Made by a program: the position numbers and the translations under genes. From the IMG/VR virus record IMGVR_UViG_3300044960_000566, positions 1 through 35,123 of that record: a stretch of 35,123 bases of DNA, one strand, 5' to 3'. Position 1 is the first letter of the stretch. Every line of letters starts with the position of its first letter. Under the pieces are notes generated by a model. It made no database searches, was not told where the DNA came from, and saw only the letters and a list, made by a program, of their open reading frames with translations. The DNA comes from a virus. Shown piece by piece: positions 12,561 to 35,123 of the stretch.

Positions 12561-12827
12561 CTCGCGCACGTCGAGCACGTCGCCGGGACGCAGGCGCTCG
12601 TACGCCCCCGCCTCCAGCAGCAGGTGTGCCTCCCGCATGGTCGGTTCGTCCCACCGCGCCCAGTCGATCTCGGCCCGTACGGGGTCCAGGCGCACCAGCA
12701 GGACATAGCGGCCCGCCGTGTCGTACCCGGCGCGCTCGAGCACCCCGCCCGGGTCATCCACCCGGCCCAGGTCGATGACCAGCGCGGGGATGCGGGTCGC
12801 CGAATCGGCGATCGTGATGAGCGTCAT
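12537..12827 (-). CDS. hypothetical protein (96 aa)
   Basis: A 96-residue soluble alpha/beta protein: strands TLITIADSATRIPALVIDLG and RYVLLVRLDPVRAEIDW, then helices REAHLLLEAGAYERL and a C-terminal RPGDVLDVREARERR. The last part resembles short transcription- or restriction-related adaptor folds only loosely. ATG at 12827 overlaps the upstream stop (ATGA). Its 3' end lies in the 42-bp repeat. Function unknown. Confidence 0.55.
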   Translation of the reverse strand: MTLITIADSATRIPALVIDLGRVDDPGGVLERAGYDTAGRYVLLVRLDPVRAEIDWARWDEPTMREAHLLLEAGAYERLRPGDVLDVREARERRAG

Positions 12828-13177
12828 GGCGCGCCTCCAGGCGCGTACTCGGGGAGGCTGGCACCCTCGGAGAGCACCACGTCCGTGACGTCGGCGTAGC
12901 GCAGGTCGGCGCTGCGCAGGTTGGCGAAGCGCAGGTCGGCGAAGCGCAGGTCGGCCCCGCGCAGGTCGGCCCCGTGCAGGTCGGCACCGCGCAGGTTGGC
13001 GAAGCGCAGGTCGGCGAAGCGTAGGTCGGCGCTGCGCAGATTGGCGCTGCGCAGGTTGGCGAAGCGCAGGTCGGCCCCGCGCAGGTCGGCCCCGTGCAGG
13101 TCAGCCCGCTCCCCCCCCTCGCCGCGCAGCCACCGCGCGTGCGAGTCGAGGATGGCCTTCAGCTCGGCGGCGGTCAT
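12824..13177 (-). CDS. pentapeptide-repeat protein
   Basis: A 117-residue protein that should fold as a right-handed quadrilateral beta-helix. After a 28-residue helical start (TAAELKAILDSHARWLRGE) about 15 tandem A(D/N)LXX units follow (ADLHG, ADLRG, ADLRF, ANLRS and so on), then a short tail (VLSEGASLPEYAPG). Related folds mimic DNA and protect DNA gyrase (Qnr, MfpA types), but this example is short and lacks their loops, so that link is a hypothesis. ATG at 13177 overlaps the previous stop by ATGA. The underlying DNA is a 15-bp tandem repeat with a larger internal duplication. Confidence 0.8.
   Translation of the reverse strand: MTAAELKAILDSHARWLRGEGGERADLHGADLRGADLRFANLRSANLRSADLRFADLRFANLRGADLHGADLRGADLRFADLRFANLRSADLRYADVTDVVLSEGASLPEYAPGGAP
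12898..13112. repeat. 15-bp tandem repeat in pentapeptide gene
   Basis: About fourteen 15-bp units of the type GCAGGTCGGCGAAGC lie head to tail, each coding one pentapeptide. Two longer stretches (about 12917-12982 and 13046-13112) are near copies of each other, showing a recent multi-unit duplication. It is coding repeat, not CRISPR: there are no unique spacers. Confidence 0.8.
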
Positions 13178-13809
13178 CCCGTCACCGGCACGTGCGGCGC
13201 CGCCGGGGGCGGGGTGATCGGCATCGGGCAGCGCAACCGCCAGTACCAGCGCGGCCCGGCGCCGCGACGCCGCAGGTCGGCGCAGGTGATGCGCGGCTGG
13301 CCCACGCATCCGAAGCGCACCAGCCACCGGCGTCCGGCGCCGACGCGCCGCAGGTGGGCGCAGTCGATCGCGGGCCGGGTGACGGGCGGCGCCGTGGCGA
13401 CCGGGGGCGGAGGCGGCGCCGGTGCGACCGGCGGCGGCGACTCCTCGCCCGGGGGCGCCGGAGGCAGTGGGGGCGCGGCGCAGCTCACATCGGCCGACGC
13501 GGACCAGCGGTCTCGCCCCACCGCGTAGGCGGCGACGAGGCGGCCCGAGCCGCGCGGCAGCGCCACCGGAACCGACGACGCGGGGCCCGTGAAGCGATGC
13601 GTGCCTACGTGGACGGTCTCGCCGTCGAGGGTGACCAGGAGGCTCCCCGAGATCTCGCGCCCCGGCACGAAGCCGTCGAGGACGACGCGGGCCGTGGGCC
13701 CCTGGCATGCGACGCCGACCGAGACGTTCGCCTCGGCCCGACCCGGAAGGAGCAGGCCGGCCGCGAGGATCGGGGCGGCCAGGATGGCGACTGCGGTGCG
13801 GTCGCGCAT
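13174..13809 (-). CDS. secreted protein with duplicated Cys motif
   Basis: A 211-residue exported protein. The N-terminus is a signal peptide (RDRTAVAILAAPILAAGLLL then PGRAEA, likely cut after AEA). An Ig-like beta domain (to about 110) follows, then a Pro-rich linker (115-145), then two copies of a roughly 25-residue unit, DCAHLRRVGAGRRWLVRFGC and TCADLRRRGAGPRWYWRLRC. Paired Cys at the ends of each unit probably form disulfides outside the cytoplasm. I do not recognise the unit. In an early operon a secreted protein may act at the host surface, for example in superinfection exclusion; that is inference. Confidence 0.65.
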   Translation of the reverse strand: MRDRTAVAILAAPILAAGLLLPGRAEANVSVGVACQGPTARVVLDGFVPGREISGSLLVTLDGETVHVGTHRFTGPASSVPVALPRGSGRLVAAYAVGRDRWSASADVSCAAPPLPPAPPGEESPPPVAPAPPPPPVATAPPVTRPAIDCAHLRRVGAGRRWLVRFGCVGQPRITCADLRRRGAGPRWYWRLRCPMPITPPPAAPHVPVTG

Positions 13810-14153
13810 CAGGCAGCCACCTGCGCGGGCGCGGCCGGGTCGGGGTCACGACCGCCCGGCAGGGCGACCAGGACCAGCCCCTCGCGCTGCTCGCGCCGCC
13901 GGGTCAGGACCCGCAGGTCGCGCAGCCCGGTCCCGATCTCCCGCAGGCGCTCGTCGGCCTGGCGCTCCAGGCGCTCGGCCCGGCGGGCGTACTCGTGCGC
14001 CTTGATCGCGTCGCGCCCGGCGAAGTAGCTCGCCCGTCGGCGGCCGTCGGCGGCCTGGGCCAGGTCGTCCTCGACCTCGGCCAGCAGCCACGCCAGGTCG
14101 TCGATGATGCGAGGGACCCGTCGCAGGGTCCGGGGCCCGTCCTTGGGGGCCAT
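13809..14153 (-). CDS. hypothetical coiled-coil protein (114 aa)
   Basis: A 114-residue charged helical protein: IIDDLAWLLAEVEDDLAQAA, then KAHEYARRAERLERQADERL, predicted coiled coil, with a loose end (LPGGRDPDPAAPAQVAA). ATG at 14153 is preceded by GGGAGGT at good spacing. It follows the Xre regulator directly and its stop shares a base with the next start (TGATG). No enzymatic motif. Confidence 0.6.
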   Translation of the reverse strand: MAPKDGPRTLRRVPRIIDDLAWLLAEVEDDLAQAADGRRRASYFAGRDAIKAHEYARRAERLERQADERLREIGTGLRDLRVLTRRREQREGLVLVALPGGRDPDPAAPAQVAA

Positions 14154-14156
14154 CGG

Positions 14157-14474
14157 CTAACCTCCCGTGTGGGCCCCCGCGGCCGCGCTCATCTTCTTGC
14201 TGGAGGAGGGCGCGTCCTCGGGGGTTCTGTTTGCAGGGGTTTCGTGCGTACTCGCGCCGACGCCGTTGGCCGGCGTGGCAGGGTCTGGGTCGTGATGACC
14301 CTCCAAGGCCGCGAAGATCCGCTCGACGGTGCTCAGGCGCGGGTCGGTCGTGACGCCCTGCTCGATGTTCCGCAGCGCCGTCAGGCTCACGCCGGCGGCG
14401 ATGGCCACCTCGACCTGGGTCAGGCCAGTGGACTCGCGGGCGCTACGGACTCTCTCTGCGAGGGTTCCCGGCAT
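14157..14474 (-). CDS. Xre-family transcriptional regulator (putative repressor)
   Basis: A 105-residue regulator. Residues 3-60 are a five-helix Cro/C1-type HTH: LAERVRSARESTGLTQVEVA, IAAGVSLTALRNIEQG, STVERIFAALEG. The remaining 45 residues are low-complexity and polar, with no protease-like domain, so induction by self-cleavage is unlikely. It is first in the leftward early operon and divergent from a Cro-like gene, with palindromic sites between them. It most likely represses its own and the divergent promoter. It is short for a lambda-type repressor, so it could equally be a lytic-stage regulator. Confidence 0.8.
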   Translation of the reverse strand: MPGTLAERVRSARESTGLTQVEVAIAAGVSLTALRNIEQGVTTDPRLSTVERIFAALEGHHDPDPATPANGVGASTHETPANRTPEDAPSSSKKMSAAAGAHTGG

Positions 14475-14578
14475 TGGTGACTACCACCGTACCGGTACCG
14501 GTACGCGAGCGCAAGTGCGCGCCGGTGCCCGTGCGCCGGTACTACCGCCAGGCGGGTACCTGTTTTACGGTTCCCCTC
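14475..14578. promoter_or_regulatory. divergent control region with operator-like palindromes
   Basis: This 104-bp gap separates the Xre gene (left) from the Cro-like gene (right). It holds a perfect 18-bp palindrome, CGTACCGGTACCGGTACG (14488-14505), and two related sites, GGTGACTACC (14476-14485) and GGTACTACC (14538-14546), plus a further GTACC at 14556-14560. These are good candidates for repressor and Cro binding. Divergent promoters must lie here; no consensus -35 boxes are clear. Confidence 0.65.
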
Positions 14579-14815
14579 ATGGATCAGGTGGACGTCATCG
14601 CGGAGATGCGAGCCGCGGCCGGATCGCGCCAGAAGCTGGCCGAGATCGCCGGCGTCGCCATCTCGACCGCTCAGGCGTGGGAGAAGGGCGTGCCGCCGAA
14701 GAGTCCTCCACTGTCCCGGCTCAACCGCTGGCGACCCGACCTCACGGCGAAGCTCATGGACGCGATCGCCGCCGCCGACGATGCCCGGCGGGCAGCCGAC
14801 GCGGCCGGGGAGTGA
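14579..14815 (+). CDS. Cro-like HTH protein
   Basis: A 78-residue DNA-binding protein. The segment IAEMRAAAGSRQKLAEIAGV then AISTAQAWEKGVPPKSPPLS is a Cro-type HTH (like YdaS/DUF-type antirepressors, with the 'AWEKG-PP' wing). The N-terminus is tight and the C-terminus is a short acidic helix. It is divergent from the Xre gene over palindromic DNA, so it likely competes for those sites. The ATG at 14579 sits inside a longer open frame, but upstream sequence is the operator. It is followed by a gene on the other strand that overlaps its 3' end. Confidence 0.75.
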   Translation: MDQVDVIAEMRAAAGSRQKLAEIAGVAISTAQAWEKGVPPKSPPLSRLNRWRPDLTAKLMDAIAAADDARRAADAAGE

Positions 14816-15461: not shown

Positions 15462-16094
15462 TCAGGCGGCCCGCGCCCTCTCGGCCATCCGCCGCGAGCG
15501 CATGTACGCCCCGGACTCCGTGATCCCGAGGGCCGCCCCGATCGCGCGGAAGCTCTCGCCGCGGATGCGCCCGGACAGGACGGCCCGCTCCCCCGGGGTC
15601 GCGACGGCCCACAGGCGGCGCAGGGCGTCACGGGCGATGACGACCTGCTCGGGCCCCTCGGCCGGGTCGGGCAGCGCCTCGGCGAACGTCTCGCCCTCCA
15701 CGTCGCTGACCAACGGGACGTCCAGGGAGAGCGTCCAGAAGCCGTGGTGCTCGTGCGGGCCGGACGCGCGGCCGAGGCGCGTGCGCAGGACGTCCACGTA
15801 GGCCAGGACCAGGACCCGCCACAGGAACGCCTCCGGGTCCACCCCGCGGGCCCGGGAGAGGGGCCAGGCCCGCGGCAGGCGGCGCAGCAGCAGGGCGCAC
15901 ACGTCGGCCACCACGTCCTCACGGTCCGTGAGCGGCCCCTCGCCGCGCTCCCGGCACCAGCGGGCAAGTCGCCTCCGGACCTCCGGCAACAGGGCCTCCC
16001 AGGCGCGCTCCCGGGCAGGGCCGCCCCCGGCCGCGCCGTCGAGCGCGGCCCGCAGCTCCGCCCCGGCGAGGCGCGCGGGGCGGGCGGCGGACAC
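15462..16094 (-). CDS. ECF-type sigma factor-like protein
   Basis: A 210-residue protein with the two-domain plan of extracytoplasmic-function sigma factors. Region 2 is about 35-110: LTDREDVVADVCALLLRRLP and PEAFLWRVLVLAYVDVLRTR, the core-binding and -10 part. Region 4 is about 160-208: LRRLWAVATPGERAVLSGRI, GESFRAIGAALGITESGAYM, a -35-reading HTH. The linker is long and acidic. It may direct host RNA polymerase to phage promoters. No anti-sigma gene is adjacent. GTG at 16094. It is encoded at the end of the late block, facing the rightward mini-operon. Confidence 0.75.
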   Translation of the reverse strand: MSAARPARLAGAELRAALDGAAGGGPARERAWEALLPEVRRRLARWCRERGEGPLTDREDVVADVCALLLRRLPRAWPLSRARGVDPEAFLWRVLVLAYVDVLRTRLGRASGPHEHHGFWTLSLDVPLVSDVEGETFAEALPDPAEGPEQVVIARDALRRLWAVATPGERAVLSGRIRGESFRAIGAALGITESGAYMRSRRMAERARAA

Positions 16095-16433: not shown

Positions 16434-17264
16434 CTACGTGGTGGACAGGGCGCCGGCCGCCGTGGCGGTGCCGCCCTCGGTGCTGACGGGGACGCGCCTG
16501 CGCCAGCGGCGCAGGTTCATGTGGCCGACCCGGCGGGCGTAGGCGGCCAGGCGCTCCTCGCGGACCTCGCGGCTCGCCCAGCCGCCGAACTCCCACGTCG
16601 CCCCGAAGGTGCCGATCGGCCCGGCCTCGAAGGCGTAGGGGCTCGCCCGGTTGATCCGCACCGCACGGGTCCACATATCGGGGCGCGCGGCGGCGAAGGC
16701 CTCCATCCGGGCATCTCGGGCCTGTGCGCTCGCCCATCCGCCGAACAGGCGCGGCCGCAGGTTGAGGTCGTCGAAGCCGTAGCTGTCGCGCATCACCACT
16801 CGCGTCGCCGTGCCGGCGACCGCGGGCGGCACGATGATGCGCCACTCGTCCTTGGCGCGCACCAGGCGGCGGACGGCGTTGCCGACGTTGCCCTCGATCG
16901 TGTCGAGCAGGCCGTTGCCGCGGTCGCGCACGACGATCCCGACGTGCACGCCGCATCGGATGGTGAGGCTACCGGGCGGGGCGAGCCCGTCGGGCGCCAG
17001 CCCGCCGAGGGCGTCGGCGCGCTGGCAGATGAAGCCTGTGAAGGGATGGCCGAGCATCGTGTCGAGCTCCACCCCGGCCTCGGCGTAGACGGCGCGCACG
17101 AAGATCGCGCACCAGGGCGCGCCGCGGTAGGTGCCGCGCGGAAGCCCCAGCGAATCCTCCGCGGCCCGCTGCCAGGCCTCGATCTGCGGACCGTCGTTAC
17201 GGCCAGTCGCCTCGTCGACGCCGACGTAGCGCTCGGCGACGGCGACCACCCTCTGTCCGGACAT
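16434..17264 (-). CDS. endolysin with CHAP/NlpC-like cysteine peptidase domain
   Basis: A 276-residue lysin that should cut peptidoglycan cross-links at lysis. The N-terminal ~140 residues show a Cys-peptidase pattern: GAPWCAIFV (C52), CGVHVGIVV (H107), DTIEGNVG (E124/N126). The C-terminal half holds two copies of an FGGWAS unit, LFGGWASAQARDARMEAFA and EFGGWASREVREERLAAYA, that may bind the wall. No signal peptide, so it needs a holin. ATG at 17264 follows GGAGGAGG, a strong ribosome binding site. It lies between the two membrane-protein genes, a normal lysis cassette. Confidence 0.75.
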   Translation of the reverse strand: MSGQRVVAVAERYVGVDEATGRNDGPQIEAWQRAAEDSLGLPRGTYRGAPWCAIFVRAVYAEAGVELDTMLGHPFTGFICQRADALGGLAPDGLAPPGSLTIRCGVHVGIVVRDRGNGLLDTIEGNVGNAVRRLVRAKDEWRIIVPPAVAGTATRVVMRDSYGFDDLNLRPRLFGGWASAQARDARMEAFAAARPDMWTRAVRINRASPYAFEAGPIGTFGATWEFGGWASREVREERLAAYARRVGHMNLRRWRRRVPVSTEGGTATAAGALSTT

Positions 17265-17266
17265 GC

Positions 17267-17599
17267 TCAACCTCCTCCGAATCCGAGAAACGCCGCGGCG
17301 GCTCCCACGCCGGCGGCGATGACCAGGCGGGCGACGTCCCACAGCCGGTCGCGCCAGCGCTGCCTCCGGGCCGCCGCCGCCGCGGCCTGTCGCGCCTGTT
17401 CGAGCGTCTGGCCCTCCTCGACCGCCTCGGCCACCTCGTGCGCCCCAAGGCGCTCCAGCGCGACGTCGAGCTTGTTCTCGATGCGATCCCAGCGGCGCTC
17501 GTCGCGCTCACGGTCGGCGAGGTAGGCGGTCCAGGGGACCCACTTGCTGCCGTTGCCGGCGCGCGGGTATGGGAGCTCGTGCGCGTCTGCGCGGCTCAT
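17267..17599 (-). CDS. lysis-region membrane protein, holin candidate
   Basis: A 110-residue protein with a polar N-terminus, a coiled-coil middle (RERDERRWDRIENKLDVALE, EEGQTLEQARQAAAAAARR) and one C-terminal hydrophobic helix (LVIAAGVGAAAAFLGFG). The tail-anchored form, directly upstream of the endolysin, fits a class III-like holin or a spanin-type helper. ATG at 17599 starts after a gap with an inverted repeat. The exact role is open. Confidence 0.55.
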   Translation of the reverse strand: MSRADAHELPYPRAGNGSKWVPWTAYLADRERDERRWDRIENKLDVALERLGAHEVAEAVEEGQTLEQARQAAAAAARRQRWRDRLWDVARLVIAAGVGAAAAFLGFGGG

Positions 17600-17613
17600 G
17601 GCCAGAACGACGA

Positions 17614-17636
17614 CGGCCCCGTCGTTGCCGGGGCCG
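17614..17636. other. 8-bp inverted repeat in divergent gap
   Basis: CGGCCCCG and CGGGGCCG with a 7-nt loop (TCGTTGC) lie between the minus-strand lysis gene and the plus-strand metallopeptidase gene. No T-run follows on either strand. Could be an operator serving both divergent genes, or a barrier to read-through of the tail transcript. Confidence 0.45.
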
Positions 17637-17661
17637 CTTCGGTGGGGGTAATGTCGCCCTC

Positions 17662-18327
17662 ATGCGTATGCGCGTCCCTGTGATCGTCGTTTTGGTCCTC
17701 CTGCTGCTCCCGGCAACGGCCGGGGGGCAGCCTGCGGACCCGGCGCAGCGGCTGGCCGACGAGACGGCTGACTGGATCGGGGAGGTGCTGCGCATCCCCG
17801 CCCAGCGCGCGGAGCTCGTCACGGCCGCCGACGACCAGCTGCTGGTCGGGTCGGGCGGCGGCCAGGTCGTCTGCTCCGACCCGAGCGTGATCCACCTGGG
17901 CGACTTCTCGCGCGAGCGCCTCAACGGGATCGCGGAGGGGCGGATCGAGGACCCGCACACATCGGCGCTCCTCGTCCACGAGCTGCTGCACATCATCACC
18001 CTGCGCCTCCACCCGGCAGGCGAGGACGGCCGCTGTCCCTTCGACCGCGAGGTCGAGGAGGGGATCGTCGAGGCGGTGACGCGCGACCTCATGCCCGCGT
18101 GGACGCACCGCTTCTCGTCCGGGTGGTCGCCCCTCTCGCACAACTCGATGTGGGATCGGGAGGTGCTCCACATCCGCGGGGCCTCGCGCTACCTGTCGGG
18201 CTGCCCCGGCTGGCGCTGCCGGGAGGCTCGGCTCATCCGCCGCGTGATGCTGCTGGCGAGCAGGGACGACCGCCGCGCGGTGCTGCGGACGGCCGAGCTG
18301 CTGCGCGAGGCGAAGCTTCACGGCTGA
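17662..18327 (+). CDS. secreted HExxH zinc metallopeptidase (zincin)
   Basis: A 221-residue exported protein. Residues 1-23 are a signal peptide (basic RMR, then VPVIVVLVLLLL, ending ATAGG). LLVHELLH places the zinc motif at H106-E107-H110. FDREVEEGIVEAV (E130-E137) supplies a glutamate about 25 residues on, as in gluzincins. Cys at 71, 125 and in SGCPGWRC suggest disulfides. It is read against all its neighbours, between tail hub and lysis genes, ending five bases from the hub stop: the position of a moron. Substrate unknown; peptidase activity on envelope proteins is inference. ATG at 17668 is an alternative start. Confidence 0.75.
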   Translation: MRMRVPVIVVLVLLLLPATAGGQPADPAQRLADETADWIGEVLRIPAQRAELVTAADDQLLVGSGGGQVVCSDPSVIHLGDFSRERLNGIAEGRIEDPHTSALLVHELLHIITLRLHPAGEDGRCPFDREVEEGIVEAVTRDLMPAWTHRFSSGWSPLSHNSMWDREVLHIRGASRYLSGCPGWRCREARLIRRVMLLASRDDRRAVLRTAELLREAKLHG

Positions 18328-18332
18328 GGTCG

Positions 18333-21083
18333 TCACCGCAGGACCTCGACGAAGATCTGCAATCCGATGTTGGTCGTCGAGCCACCGTTGTTCCGCATCC
18401 GGGCGTAGATGCGACCGGTGTTGTCCACCGCGGTCGCCGCGTAGCCGGTGATGTCGATCTCGATCGGGATGGTCGTCCAGCTTCCGCCGAGCGGCGAGGT
18501 CCGGTCGACCCCGTTGATCTCGATGCCCAGCGGCTGCGCGGCGGAGTTGGAGTTCACCCGCACGAATGCCCGCACCACCTGGTCCGCGGCGTGCAGGTTG
18601 ACCATCGAGTACGCGCTGAACCCGCCCGCGCCGACCGACGTGAAGGGGCGCTCCCCGGTGAGCATCACCTTCTGCCGTTGGTAGGCCCGGTGGGGCATGG
18701 TCGCGGCGCGCAGCAGCCGGCGCATGCTCACCGCCCCCGAGCGCGGGCGCTGGCGGAAGGCGACCTGCGTCGCCGTCCGCCCCTCGGCTCCGAACGAGCG
18801 GGTGACCTGCAGGAGCTGGCGGGGCTCGGCGTCCTCGACGCCGATGTCCGGGACGGAGATCCGCAGCCCGTCGCCGGGACGCCAGCGCATGGCCGAGAGT
18901 GTCTCGGACAGCGGCCAGGTGTCGGCCAAGCGCTCCTGCGCGCGCGGGACCCCCCGGAGCTCCTCCCAGGGCGTCGCCCGCAGCGCGAGCTCGGCGTTGA
19001 GCCGCGCCTCCAGGAGCTGGGGGAAGCCGATCTCGGGCGCGTCGACCCGCGCCTCCAGGCCGAAGAGCGCCTCGCGCAGAGCGGGGATGTCGGCCACCTC
19101 CGCCGTCACCTGCGACCCCCGGCCGTCCGGCAGCCCGGCAGCCGATCCGCGCAGCACCACCGCCTGGTCCTCGGCGTCGATCGTGACCCCGGGCGAGAGG
19201 ATCGGATCGGCGCCGTCGGTGTCCTCGACCTCTAGGACGACGTCGGTGTCCCGGCCGACCCGTACCCGGGGCACGAGCCGTCCGGGGAACTCCCCCGACT
19301 CCAGCTGCATCGGCTCGCAGGTGAGCTGGTAGCCGAACTCGCGCGCGGCTCCGTAGACGAGATCGAAGTGGCTCTGTCCCTGGACGCGGTTGTCGTAGCA
19401 GCCGAGGGGGCTGAGACTCGTGCCGGGGACGTTCTGCCAGGTCGACCCGGTGATCGCCCCCCCGCCGGCGTCCGTGTACGAGGCCGGCGGCAGGAACTGC
19501 ATCGCGATCGACTGGGCCCCGCCCGACTCGAAGTATTCGAGGACGAGGGGGTACCAGCCAGCCTCTGCGCCGATACCCGACAGCGTCGCCGGACCGATTG
19601 TCCCGGCGCCCTCGACCCACCCGTCGAGCAGCTGCTCGCCCCATCCCGTCCTGGCGACCCAGAGCCGCGCCCCGTCGTCGACGTTGGTGAGCCGGAACTG
19701 GTAGCTACCGAGGTCCTGGCGCAGGTAGACGGCGCCGAGCCACCGCACCGAGAAGTAGTCGCCCGAGCTGCCCGGCTGGATCGGCGTGAGACCCCCGCCG
19801 GCGGACACGGCCTCCACGCGCTCGCCGTAGTGCTCACGGACCGGGGCCAGGATGCGCGCCCGGCGGTGGGCCGCGCTCAGCCCCTGCAGGTCGCCGTGGT
19901 TGAAGTACCGGCCCAGCAGGCCGCCCGTCGGGTAGTCGCCCGGAAGGACGTAGTTGCCCTTGTCGGCGCCGCGGGCCAGGAAGGGGCGGAGGCGCTCGAC
20001 GACCACGCGCTTGAAGGTGGCGCGGATCCTCCCCGATGGTGGCAACGACCCGGAGACGCGCACCCGCACCTGGTCGGGGGCCGTCGCCCCGAGGTTGGTG
20101 ACCTCGAACTGGCCGACCAGGCGCCCCTGGGCGAAGGCCCGGATCCATCGGCCCTGGCGCTCGAGGACCAGCGTGATCGGGGTGCGCAGGACATTGCCCT
20201 CCGCCTCGGGCACGCTGGCGATCACCCTGAGATCCCCGACCCCGCCGGGGGGAACGTTCGCATCCGTGAGCGCAGCCTGCCCGAGCTCCACCCCGACGCT
20301 GACGTTCTTGCCGCTGCCAGAGTTGCGGGCCTGGAGGTCGGCGCGCACGTGGTCGGTGTAGCCGTCGAACCTCTCCGTCGACACCACTACGGCGGTCATG
20401 CGCCAGTCGTCCGAGCCCACGTCGATCTCTCGGTAGCCGACCCCGTCCTGCTCGGACGAGAAGTTGCACTCCACGCGCACAAGCCGGAGGTCGACGTCGG
20501 AGGAGTTGCCCTGCTCGGGGTCGTCGTGCGTCGTGACGGTGCCGGCCGCGGTCAACCATGTCGAGTTGGTGATCGCCCAGGTGGGCACCCGCGTGTAGGC
20601 CTCGACCACGTCGCGCGGAGCGTGCGTCCAGGTGCGGTCGCCCTCGTAGGTCCGCCGTAGGAGCGCCGAGGCGTCGGGCCCGGAGATCTCCACGCGCCCG
20701 CGGTCGACCTCGATCCGCTGGATGACGCCCACGAACTCCAGGACGTCGTCGCGGTAGATCTCGATGAACTGCATCGAGCGGTCGACGCTGAAGCGCTCGC
20801 GCCAGAGGCCCTTGGAGCCCGCGGCGTTGGGGAAGGTGAGCGAGAACTCGCCCGCGTCTCCCAGGCGCCGGGTGTAGGTGCCCTCGACGAGGTCGTGCGA
20901 GGTCGGAAGGTGCGAGAGCGGCAGCTCGGTGAATCCGTAGGTGCGGCCGAGGATGGTCTGCGTGGCGCCCTCGGACGGCCGCCCGCCGAGGTACGCCTCG
21001 GTCGGGTGGATGTGGCGGATGCGGTGCTCGCGGGCGTCGACGAGCTGGGCCGGGGCGTCGCGGGTTCCGATGGCGGTGCTCAT
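18333..21083 (-). CDS. tail hub/minor tail protein with inserted PA14 domain
   Basis: A 916-residue structural protein. The first ~150 residues (GDAGEFSLTFPNAAG, MQFIEIYRDDVLEFVGVIQR) resemble the Gp37-like tail-hub family of siphoviruses. A beta domain follows (about 200-370), then a PA14 domain at about 388-531: LGRYFNHGDLQG, VRWLGAVYL, FRLTNVDDGARLWV, WYPLVLEYFESGG and MQFLPP. The rest returns to hub-like sequence, and the last 120 residues form another beta sandwich. PA14 domains bind glycans, so adsorption to a host polysaccharide is likely. It is the last tail gene. Confidence 0.75.
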   Translation of the reverse strand: MSTAIGTRDAPAQLVDAREHRIRHIHPTEAYLGGRPSEGATQTILGRTYGFTELPLSHLPTSHDLVEGTYTRRLGDAGEFSLTFPNAAGSKGLWRERFSVDRSMQFIEIYRDDVLEFVGVIQRIEVDRGRVEISGPDASALLRRTYEGDRTWTHAPRDVVEAYTRVPTWAITNSTWLTAAGTVTTHDDPEQGNSSDVDLRLVRVECNFSSEQDGVGYREIDVGSDDWRMTAVVVSTERFDGYTDHVRADLQARNSGSGKNVSVGVELGQAALTDANVPPGGVGDLRVIASVPEAEGNVLRTPITLVLERQGRWIRAFAQGRLVGQFEVTNLGATAPDQVRVRVSGSLPPSGRIRATFKRVVVERLRPFLARGADKGNYVLPGDYPTGGLLGRYFNHGDLQGLSAAHRRARILAPVREHYGERVEAVSAGGGLTPIQPGSSGDYFSVRWLGAVYLRQDLGSYQFRLTNVDDGARLWVARTGWGEQLLDGWVEGAGTIGPATLSGIGAEAGWYPLVLEYFESGGAQSIAMQFLPPASYTDAGGGAITGSTWQNVPGTSLSPLGCYDNRVQGQSHFDLVYGAAREFGYQLTCEPMQLESGEFPGRLVPRVRVGRDTDVVLEVEDTDGADPILSPGVTIDAEDQAVVLRGSAAGLPDGRGSQVTAEVADIPALREALFGLEARVDAPEIGFPQLLEARLNAELALRATPWEELRGVPRAQERLADTWPLSETLSAMRWRPGDGLRISVPDIGVEDAEPRQLLQVTRSFGAEGRTATQVAFRQRPRSGAVSMRRLLRAATMPHRAYQRQKVMLTGERPFTSVGAGGFSAYSMVNLHAADQVVRAFVRVNSNSAAQPLGIEINGVDRTSPLGGSWTTIPIEIDITGYAATAVDNTGRIYARMRNNGGSTTNIGLQIFVEVLR

Positions 21084-23054: not shown

Positions 23055-26000
23055 CTACACCTCCATCCCGACCAGGCGGTCTGAGCTCGGCGGCGCCAGC
23101 GAGCGCAACACGTAGTCCTGGCCGCGGTAGCCGAAGACGACCGAACCGCCGAAGGTGCGGTTGAGGTCCTTGAGGGCCTCGGTGTTCTCGTTGATCGCCT
23201 TGATCTGCTCCTCGATGCTCTCGCGCTGCTGGCGCGCGGACAGGTACGCGCGGGCCGCGTCAGCGATGCGGCGCGGGTCGCCTGAGGCGAGCGCGGCCTC
23301 GTAGTCCCGGCGGGCGAGGTCCTCGATCGTGCGGGCGGCGGAGAGGTCGTCCTCCAGGCCGGGCGTGAGGGCGGCCTGCGCGAGCGCCGCCTCGGCGAAG
23401 TCGGCCTCTGTGGGCGGGCCCTCGCCGTCCCCCCCGGCGAAGTTCTCCTCGTACTGCTCCTGGGCGATCTCCTCGTTCAGCTCCTTGAGCTCGTCGATGA
23501 GCTCGGCCCGGATCTCGATGAGCTCGTCGCGCTCGCGGCGGTTCTGCCGCATCGCCGCTCGGATGCGGTTGAGGGCCTGTCGCCGCGCGGCGGGGTCTCC
23601 ACCGCCCTTACCGACCCGCTTGAGATCGGCGCGCAGCTTGGCCCAGCGCTTGGCGAGGCGCTGAAGCGCCGCATTCACACGGCGGATGTCGGCCCGCAGG
23701 AGCTGACCCTGCTTGGCGCGCTCGGCCGCCTGCTCATCCGCCGCGACCTGGTCGGGCGGCTTCCCCGCCGCGCGTGCCCGCCGGGCGGCGGCGCGTCCTG
23801 CGGCGCGGACCGCGCGCTCGCCGCGGGCGGACGAGGTGCCCAGGCGGGCGCCCACCGCGGCCGAGACGTCGGCGCCGGCCTGGAGGACTCGGTTGACGAT
23901 GCCCTTGGCGCCCGAGGAGATGCCCGCACCCCGGATCGTCTGAGCGAGCCGTTCGCGAGGGCTCAGCTGGGGTGCGCGCTCCTGCGAGGGCGTGAAGTGT
24001 CCGTCATCGCCACCCTTGGAGCCCGGCTTCCCCGCCGGGGCCCGGACGATCGAGTGCAGCGCCGACAGGCTCGTGGAGCCGAGGTGCAAGTGCGGGCCGC
24101 CGTTCACGCCCTCACCCAGGTAGCCGAGCACCTCGCCGGCGCCGACGCTCTGGCCGGGTCGCACCGCTACCGACTTCAGGTGTTTGTAGTAGAGCTGGAT
24201 GCCCTTGGTGCTTAGGTAGACAGCGTGGCCCCAGAAGCGCGGGTCCGACTGAAACGGGCGCACGGCCCCGATCACGCCGGGCCCGGCCGCCACGACCGGC
24301 ATGCCGTCGCGCCCCATCAGGTCGTACGCCGCGTCCGACTGCCAGTTGTTGGGTGGCGCGGTGTAGGAGTGCGTGCCCTGCCCGGGCCCGCCGCCCAGGC
24401 GTGCCCCCGGCGCGGGGTGCACCCAGCCGCCGCTGGCGAACGCCGCCCCGTCGCCGCCGACGATGCCGCCAGTCGCCCGCAGAGCGCCCATGATGCGGTC
24501 GATGCCGACGATCCGCTGCTGGCTCGGGTTGAGGACGACCTCGCCCGCATGGGCGACGATCGGCACCGCCTGGCCGCGGCGGCCGGGGACGGTCCCGCCG
24601 CGGTCGAGTACCGCTCCGATGGGCCCGAGCGCGTCGAGGATTGCCCGGCCCACTCCTCCACCCCCGCGGCCTGGGATCGCGTCGAGGATCGCATCGCGCA
24701 CCGCGTCCCTGATCTCTCCGGCGATCGACTTGATCCCCGAGACGATGCCGCGGACGATGGCTCGGCCCATTCGCCGCACCGCGTCGAGCGCACGACCAGC
24801 GAGCCCACCGATCTTGCTGATCCCATCCATGACGCGATCTCTCAGCGATGCACCCAGCCCGCGCAGCCCGTTGAGGATGCCCTCAGCGATGCGTTTGCCG
24901 ATTGTCAGTGCAATCGACGCGGCGGCCTGGGGGATCGTTCGGAGGAAGTCAAGAACGCCCTCAAGGTTCGTCCGAGCGATCGTCTTGATCGCACCCCATG
25001 CCCGTCCCCAATCGCCGCGCAGGAGCGCCATCGCAAACGCGACCAACTCCCTGATGGTGATCATCATCCGTTCTATCGTGCGGCCGACGAAGCGGGCTAC
25101 TGCGCTGATCTCGTCGCCGAACTCGCCCCAGAGTCGCCGAGCGCCGGCGACCACCGTGCGCACCGTCGGGACGACGTTGGCATCCATCCACCTGACGACG
25201 TCGGAGATAACTACCCGCACGTCACGGAACGCCGCGGCGGTCGTGTCACGGAACGCGGGCCAGTTTCGTTGCGCCCACTGGGCGACATCGTTGACCACGC
25301 GGAGGGTCTGGACCATCAGCGGAAGAAACACACGTCCGATCTGAGCGGAGAGGTCGGCCATCTGGGCCTTCGCGATCCGCTGGGCATTCGCCATCCCATC
25401 CGCGGTGCGGGCGAAGTCGCCCTGCTGGTCGGCGGTGTCCTTCAGGAGCAGCGAGTAGCGGGCCTGGATCTTCTGCTGCTCGGTCAGCTCGGCTCCGGTC
25501 TCGGCGATGCCGACCTTGTAGGCGTGCTGCTTCACGCGGGTCTCGGTCAGCACGGCCCCGAAGCGCTTCAGCGGCTCCGACTCCCCCGAGAGGCCGGAGC
25601 GGATGCGGTCGAGCATCTCGGTCGGGTCCTCGTTGTTGAACGAGGCCATGTCCGACGCGAGCTGGACCATCTCGCGGCTCATCTCGGCGGCGCGCTTCGG
25701 CGCGACGCCCATCGGCTTCAGCATCGCGCCGATCGAGGCCGCGTTCTCCAGCGCGGCCGCCTTCGACATGCCGAGCGAAGTGGCCGCCGTGCTGGCCCAC
25801 TTCTCCATCGCGGGCCCGGCGGCCTCGAAGGTCTCCCGGCTCTTGTTGACCGACTCCTCCAGGTCGGAGGCGGCCCGGGTGGCCTTGACGGCACCGGCCG
25901 CGAAGCCGGCGCCAGCGGCGGCGCCGGCCAGGGCTGCGCCTCTCGCAAGGCGGCCCATGCCGCGGCGAAGTCGGTCTGAGGACTTCTCCAGGCCGGCCAT

Positions 26001-26081
26001 GTCCCTGTCGACCTGCCGGAAGGCGCGCGAGAGGGACTTCGGGTCCCCGGTGATGCGGACGCTCAGCTCGCGAGTGCTCAC
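23055..26081 (-). CDS. tape measure protein with embedded M23-like domain
   Basis: The 1008-residue protein that sets tail length. Residues 1-250 are the tape-measure domain (LSVRITGDPKSLSRAFRQVD, AAGAGFAAGAVKATRAASDL, LTEQQKIQARYSLLLKDTAD). Then come amphipathic helices, a Gly-rich part, an M23/LytM-like fold at about 575-670, and a long coiled coil (670-960). In the M23-like part GPHLHLG keeps the HxH zinc pair, but the first motif reads SDAAYDL, so the usual leading His is Asp; enzyme activity is therefore uncertain. GTG at 26081 overlaps the chaperone stop (GTGA). About 490 bases in the middle look lower in GC. Confidence 0.85.
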   Translation of the reverse strand: MSTRELSVRITGDPKSLSRAFRQVDRDMAGLEKSSDRLRRGMGRLARGAALAGAAAGAGFAAGAVKATRAASDLEESVNKSRETFEAAGPAMEKWASTAATSLGMSKAAALENAASIGAMLKPMGVAPKRAAEMSREMVQLASDMASFNNEDPTEMLDRIRSGLSGESEPLKRFGAVLTETRVKQHAYKVGIAETGAELTEQQKIQARYSLLLKDTADQQGDFARTADGMANAQRIAKAQMADLSAQIGRVFLPLMVQTLRVVNDVAQWAQRNWPAFRDTTAAAFRDVRVVISDVVRWMDANVVPTVRTVVAGARRLWGEFGDEISAVARFVGRTIERMMITIRELVAFAMALLRGDWGRAWGAIKTIARTNLEGVLDFLRTIPQAAASIALTIGKRIAEGILNGLRGLGASLRDRVMDGISKIGGLAGRALDAVRRMGRAIVRGIVSGIKSIAGEIRDAVRDAILDAIPGRGGGGVGRAILDALGPIGAVLDRGGTVPGRRGQAVPIVAHAGEVVLNPSQQRIVGIDRIMGALRATGGIVGGDGAAFASGGWVHPAPGARLGGGPGQGTHSYTAPPNNWQSDAAYDLMGRDGMPVVAAGPGVIGAVRPFQSDPRFWGHAVYLSTKGIQLYYKHLKSVAVRPGQSVGAGEVLGYLGEGVNGGPHLHLGSTSLSALHSIVRAPAGKPGSKGGDDGHFTPSQERAPQLSPRERLAQTIRGAGISSGAKGIVNRVLQAGADVSAAVGARLGTSSARGERAVRAAGRAAARRARAAGKPPDQVAADEQAAERAKQGQLLRADIRRVNAALQRLAKRWAKLRADLKRVGKGGGDPAARRQALNRIRAAMRQNRRERDELIEIRAELIDELKELNEEIAQEQYEENFAGGDGEGPPTEADFAEAALAQAALTPGLEDDLSAARTIEDLARRDYEAALASGDPRRIADAARAYLSARQQRESIEEQIKAINENTEALKDLNRTFGGSVVFGYRGQDYVLRSLAPPSSDRLVGMEV

Positions 26082-35098: not shown

Positions 35099-35123
35099 CA
35101 GCGAGAATCCGTCCGAGGAAGGT
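35098..35123 (-). CDS. C-terminal end of a gene running in from outside the window
   Basis: Seven codons (LPRTDSR) before TGA at 35100-35098, overlapping the terminase small subunit start as TGATG. If the molecule is circular, this frame continues from position 1 and meets the HNH gene at the C9 run (32-40). It is then probably the true end of that HNH protein, given one base difference. Confidence 0.4.

Follow-up and report, generated by a model that had tools for sequence, protein, structure and literature searches.

A phage gene for a predicted exported zincin-like protein, encoded opposite the late genes

The gene and its surroundings

The window, by which we mean the entire 35,123-nucleotide stretch of DNA that we analyzed, is a virus record with 72% GC. 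Its minus strand encodes TerL, the portal, the major capsid protein, the tail tube, and a tape measure protein with an M23 domain. On the plus strand, an open reading frame starts with an ATG at 17662, has a stop codon that ends at 18327, and encodes 221 amino acids; we refer to the product, which is predicted to be exported, as the zincin-like protein. The GC content of its three codon positions (0.75/0.48/0.95) follows the same pattern as that of other genes in the window. A long minus-strand reading frame that covers it (17596-19644; 0.93/0.64/0.60) was rejected as spurious. Three other phages and a bacterial plasmid encode full-length homologs in which the HExxH residues and the two downstream glutamates never vary, so this is not a chance reading frame. 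Thus, by codon-position GC and by homology, 17662-18327 (+) is a real gene.

As the earlier note had described, the gene lies on the opposite strand to the late genes, with tail genes on one side and lysis genes on the other. It ends 5 bp from the end of a convergent gene for a minor tail protein (18333-21083 (-); PHROG minor tail, E = 8e-4, with a weak match to PA14). A gap of 62 bp separates its start from that of a divergent gene, 17267-17599 (-), whose small product has a C-terminal hydrophobic, membrane-spanning segment and is possibly holin-like. The endolysin gene comes next (16434-17264 (-); PHROG endolysin, E = 4e-7), and its start at 17264 has a Shine-Dalgarno sequence, AGGAGGT. Also near the lysis genes, 15462-16094 (-) has a weak match to sigma-70 region 2 (E = 8e-4) and might encode a phage sigma factor. 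The tape measure gene is at 23055-26081 (-), and parts of it differ in a contig (L045) that is 99% identical to the window.

Late transcription, on its way from tail to lysis genes, would cross the zincin-like gene in the antisense direction. The gene may have a promoter of its own: at 17625-17654 (+) we found TTGCCG, an 18-bp spacer, and TAATGT, which ends 7 nt before the ATG. Among 1,750 ATG or GTG codons in the window, the start of the zincin-like gene is the only one with a well-placed TTG/TANNNT pair (TANNNT is well placed at five, of which this is one). This start also has no Shine-Dalgarno sequence, while many other genes in the window do, so we consider the site a candidate leaderless promoter. 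Leaderless starts are common in actinobacteria. A stricter scan for sigma-70 promoters did not find one for this gene, and a search of 17200-18500 did not find a terminator-like site. We also considered an inverted repeat upstream of the gene (17614-17636), but such repeats are no more frequent than expected by chance (26, versus 20 in shuffled sequences), and it has no other copy.

Export signal, putative zinc site, and homologs

The N terminus has a short basic stretch, then a hydrophobic core, and then an A-x-A site, as expected for Sec-dependent export. The signal peptide (17662-17721 (+)) reads MRMR-VPVIVVLVLLLL-PATA, followed by GG, with cleavage predicted after A20 (between A-T-A and G-G). 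The three phage homologs have export signals at the same place, with similar cleavage sites. HELLH is at residues 106-110 (17977-17991 (+)), and a pair of glutamates, E132 and E133 (18055-18060 (+)), lies within DREVEEGIVEAV and is the candidate for the third zinc ligand. In short, the signal peptide, the HELLH, and the downstream glutamate that the earlier note reported are all present, and the HExxH and the glutamate pair are conserved across the five members of the family. In the five-row alignment, the invariant positions are H106, E107, L109, H110, E132, E133, D142, L143, and W147, along with a C-terminal set (R172, A174, S175, G180, R193, R194, R204, and L208).

From this conservation, we infer a catalytic zinc site and proteolytic activity. 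H106 and H110, with either E132 or E133, would bind the metal, and E107 would be the catalytic residue; a gluzincin-like metallopeptidase is the most likely type. A metzincin was rejected because the motif HExxHxxGxxH/D is absent: the window has HELLHIITLRL, and the other family members have HELLHTHNLTP, HELLHRRDTVR, HELLHRADTRA, and HEQLHRDDTSG. The spacing from HExxH to the glutamate ranges widely across the five proteins (22, 15, 18, 18, and 10), the last value being short for a gluzincin. Structure prediction with AlphaFold, from one or four sequences, gave no confident fold (pLDDT of 45-46.5); in this low-confidence model, E132 and E133 fall within a helix (residues 129-151). Structural searches with these models (Foldseek, VIA-align 2) gave meaningless matches and did not match any zincin. 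At the sequence level, no family in Pfam, PHROG, NCBIfam, or the PDB sequences matched the protein, and our search for a known gluzincin profile in Pfam, NCBIfam, and the PDB sequences gave empty or irrelevant results.

The homologs are remote. The window's protein had no match among phages, plasmids, PDB sequences, or profile libraries, and searching viral and genome contigs with its full length also found nothing; the homologs were reached solely by using a core fragment, a degenerate DNA pattern for HExxH...EEG, and alignments. The core fragment led to a full-length homolog in a 47-kb phage contig (34% identity; pairwise E = 8e-15), and the DNA pattern added one homolog from each of two further phage contigs, 55 and 36 kb long (E = 1e-29 and 2e-25 with a two-sequence profile). 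All three are full-length and are 34-38% identical to the window's protein. A tblastn search with one of the two found by the DNA pattern gave a marginal match (E = 2) in a megaplasmid of Miltoncostaea oceani (Thermoleophilia); this match was confirmed by hhalign (97.6%) and by a four-sequence profile (E = 2.2e-15 in 815 kb). The plasmid protein, WP_217924841.1, is annotated as hypothetical and is a full-length homolog at 25% identity, with HEQLH and IEE. It differs from the window's protein in that an N-terminal anchor replaces the cleavable signal, which the other four family members have, and in that alanine replaces glycine after the glutamate pair. There are no obvious phage genes near it.

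As far as these comparisons reach, the family is unnamed in the searched libraries and undescribed, with members in four phages and on one Miltoncostaea plasmid. The match in M. oceani suggests that the phages' hosts are Thermoleophilia. Between the two closest copies, from the phages that we call G012 and G013, dN is 0.20 and dS is 0.59 (NG86), with third positions varying the most; by this measure, these copies are under purifying selection. Three other proteins that matched the DNA pattern (in L049, L051, and L053) were not family members when inspected by eye, and the record for L049 also lacked a profile match. In phages with related terminases (L001-L010), most of which are fragments, we did not find the zincin-like gene. 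Another phage with a related terminase encodes a HELAH protein (L044:12054-13034 (+)) that is ArdC-like by eye and lies outside the family.

Related phages and a candidate partner

A contig that is 99% identical to the window (L002:7596-7604) joins positions 35123 and 1, with 7 nt between them. The window therefore represents a phage genome that is essentially complete, about 35.13 kb long, and circular or circularly permuted. We did not find a tyrosine or serine integrase in this apparently complete genome, so any persistence of the phage would be hypothetical. There is a regulator-like pair, in which a helix-turn-helix regulator (14157-14474 (-)) faces a weaker helix-turn-helix protein (14474-14815 (+)). 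Another phage with the zincin-like gene, G012, has a tyrosine integrase, along with an exported transglycosylase that resembles Rpf.

The location of the gene varies. In phage G011, whose TerL is 62% identical to the window's, the zincin-like gene belongs to a series of genes on one strand, with methyltransferase genes on one side and terminase genes on the other, and its beginning overlaps the stop codon of the preceding gene. The lysis genes of G011, which encode a holin-like protein with two transmembrane segments and an Amidase_2 endolysin, directly follow a large putative tail gene; the zincin-like gene is absent there and is instead about 11 kb away, among genes for DNA metabolism. Given the similarity of the terminases, the gene occupies different sites in relatives. 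In the other phages of the set, it is also away from the lysis genes, in a stretch with DNA-metabolism and terminase genes.

The window encodes a second exported protein, with an N-terminal domain and a proline-rich tail (13174-13809 (-)), which is a candidate partner. The N-terminal domain of its mature form is homologous to an exported protein near the zincin-like gene of G012, and the exported proteins of G012 and G013 strongly resemble each other over a C-terminal stretch of 74 residues (63% identity). So a homologous exported protein is found in three of the four phages. G011 has an exported proline-rich protein near its zincin-like gene, which is at most a possible homolog of 13174-13809. 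Homologs of 13174-13809 were not found in the terminase relatives that were searched or on the M. oceani plasmid. A sample of four phages makes this association no more than suggestive.

Several other features of these genomes were observed. Just downstream of the partner gene, 12824-13180 (-) encodes a pentapeptide-repeat protein (Pfam, 4e-26). L059, which also carries the zincin-like gene, encodes an exported Rpf-like transglycosylase at 13545-14156 (-) (PF06737, E = 1e-15). It also encodes a conserved phage protein (10413-11186 (-)) whose N-terminal part is 72% identical to L062:5067-5849 (+); the L059 copy has long repeats rich in Asp-Ala-Ala. L046:9048-9800 has repetitive open frames in several frames (rich in Arg, Gly, and Ala) and resembles a degenerate repeat array.

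Possible roles and known systems

We give about even odds (0.5) to the reading that this is a moron-type accessory gene, probably with its own leaderless promoter, whose product is an exported HExxH metallopeptidase that cleaves one or a few surface proteins of the infected cell. The promoter would allow the gene to be read independently of the late operon; the protein would be exported through the Sec pathway and would then act at the cell's surface. Here, the timing and the substrate are what we infer. The substrate might be a host envelope protein, leading to lysogenic conversion or to exclusion of other phages, or it might be the phage's own second exported protein. Overall, the zincin-like protein of this soil-type actinobacterial phage probably trims a protein on the surface of the cell that it infects. 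The earlier note's proposal of a secreted zincin moron is largely supported by the export signal, the conserved HExxH and glutamates, the altered location, and the promoter candidate, with the zinc site coming from conservation. Of the features of a moron, the different position in G011 and the candidate promoter were found, but a terminator was not.

Other roles seem less likely. First, the protein might be an accessory lysis factor: an exported protease might weaken the envelope or activate an exported phage protein, and so aid the holin and endolysin. The gene does adjoin the lysis genes in the window, and in Listeria prophages, Mtz-Tim lies downstream of the holin and lysin and enhances lysis (PMC8235301). 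However, the gene is encoded on the other strand, has a promoter candidate of its own, and could not be part of the late transcript in the sense direction, and the copies in other phages are away from the lysis genes. A contribution to lysis is thus unlikely, and it was the weakest part of the earlier note. Apart from lysis, we give similarly little weight to a two-component exported system of Thermoleophilia phages, in which the unclassified zincin would mature or release the co-inherited exported protein outside the cell and so change the surface of the infected cell.

Second, the phages might have acquired a cellular gene for a protease that the host releases into soil to degrade environmental protein, for nutrients or competition. 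The homolog on a bacterial megaplasmid, away from obvious phage genes, fits this idea, but the zincin-like protein is small and single-domain with no binding module, and the anchor of the plasmid homolog suggests action at the surface; we consider it somewhat less probable than a lysis factor. Equally doubtful is the idea that the exported protein is not a peptidase and uses its HExxH helix for structure or for noncatalytic metal binding. The variable spacing and the failure of sequence and structure searches to match a peptidase family fit this idea, but the invariance of five residues (H106, E107, H110, E132, and E133) among homologs that are just 25-38% identical to the window's protein speaks against it.

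If the host class is right, these are phages of Thermoleophilia, which have been little described. Four of them share a protein family that carries an export signal and an invariant zincin motif and has no name in the searched libraries. These traits point to a role at the host surface, one that is open to direct assay.

Among known systems, the gluzincins of MEROPS clan MA(E) (such as M1, M4, M48, and Peptidase_MA_2) share HExxH followed by a conserved glutamate, in an E-G context and a predicted helix; the window's protein differs in having no profile match, a spacing of 10-22, and only a low-confidence fold. Like prophage morons, the gene lies between functional modules and on the other strand, has a promoter candidate of its own, and takes another position in a related phage; unlike them, it has no visible terminator, and lysogeny of its phage is only a possibility. 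In the phage-derived Mtz-Tim system of Listeria, the secreted metzincin Mtz cleaves its exported partner Tim and sensitizes cells to lysis (PMC8235301). In both systems, a secreted HExxH protease of phage origin would go together with an exported partner, and the cell envelope is the supposed site of action. Mtz belongs to the metzincins, Tim is a TIMP-like lipoprotein, and their genes are paired (PMC8235301), whereas the window's protein lacks the metzincin motif, and its candidate partner has no lipobox and is encoded 4 kb away on the other strand. Mtz-Tim is the closest working model, and the window may hold a second, unrelated case in which phages encode an exported protease together with a partner that is also exported.
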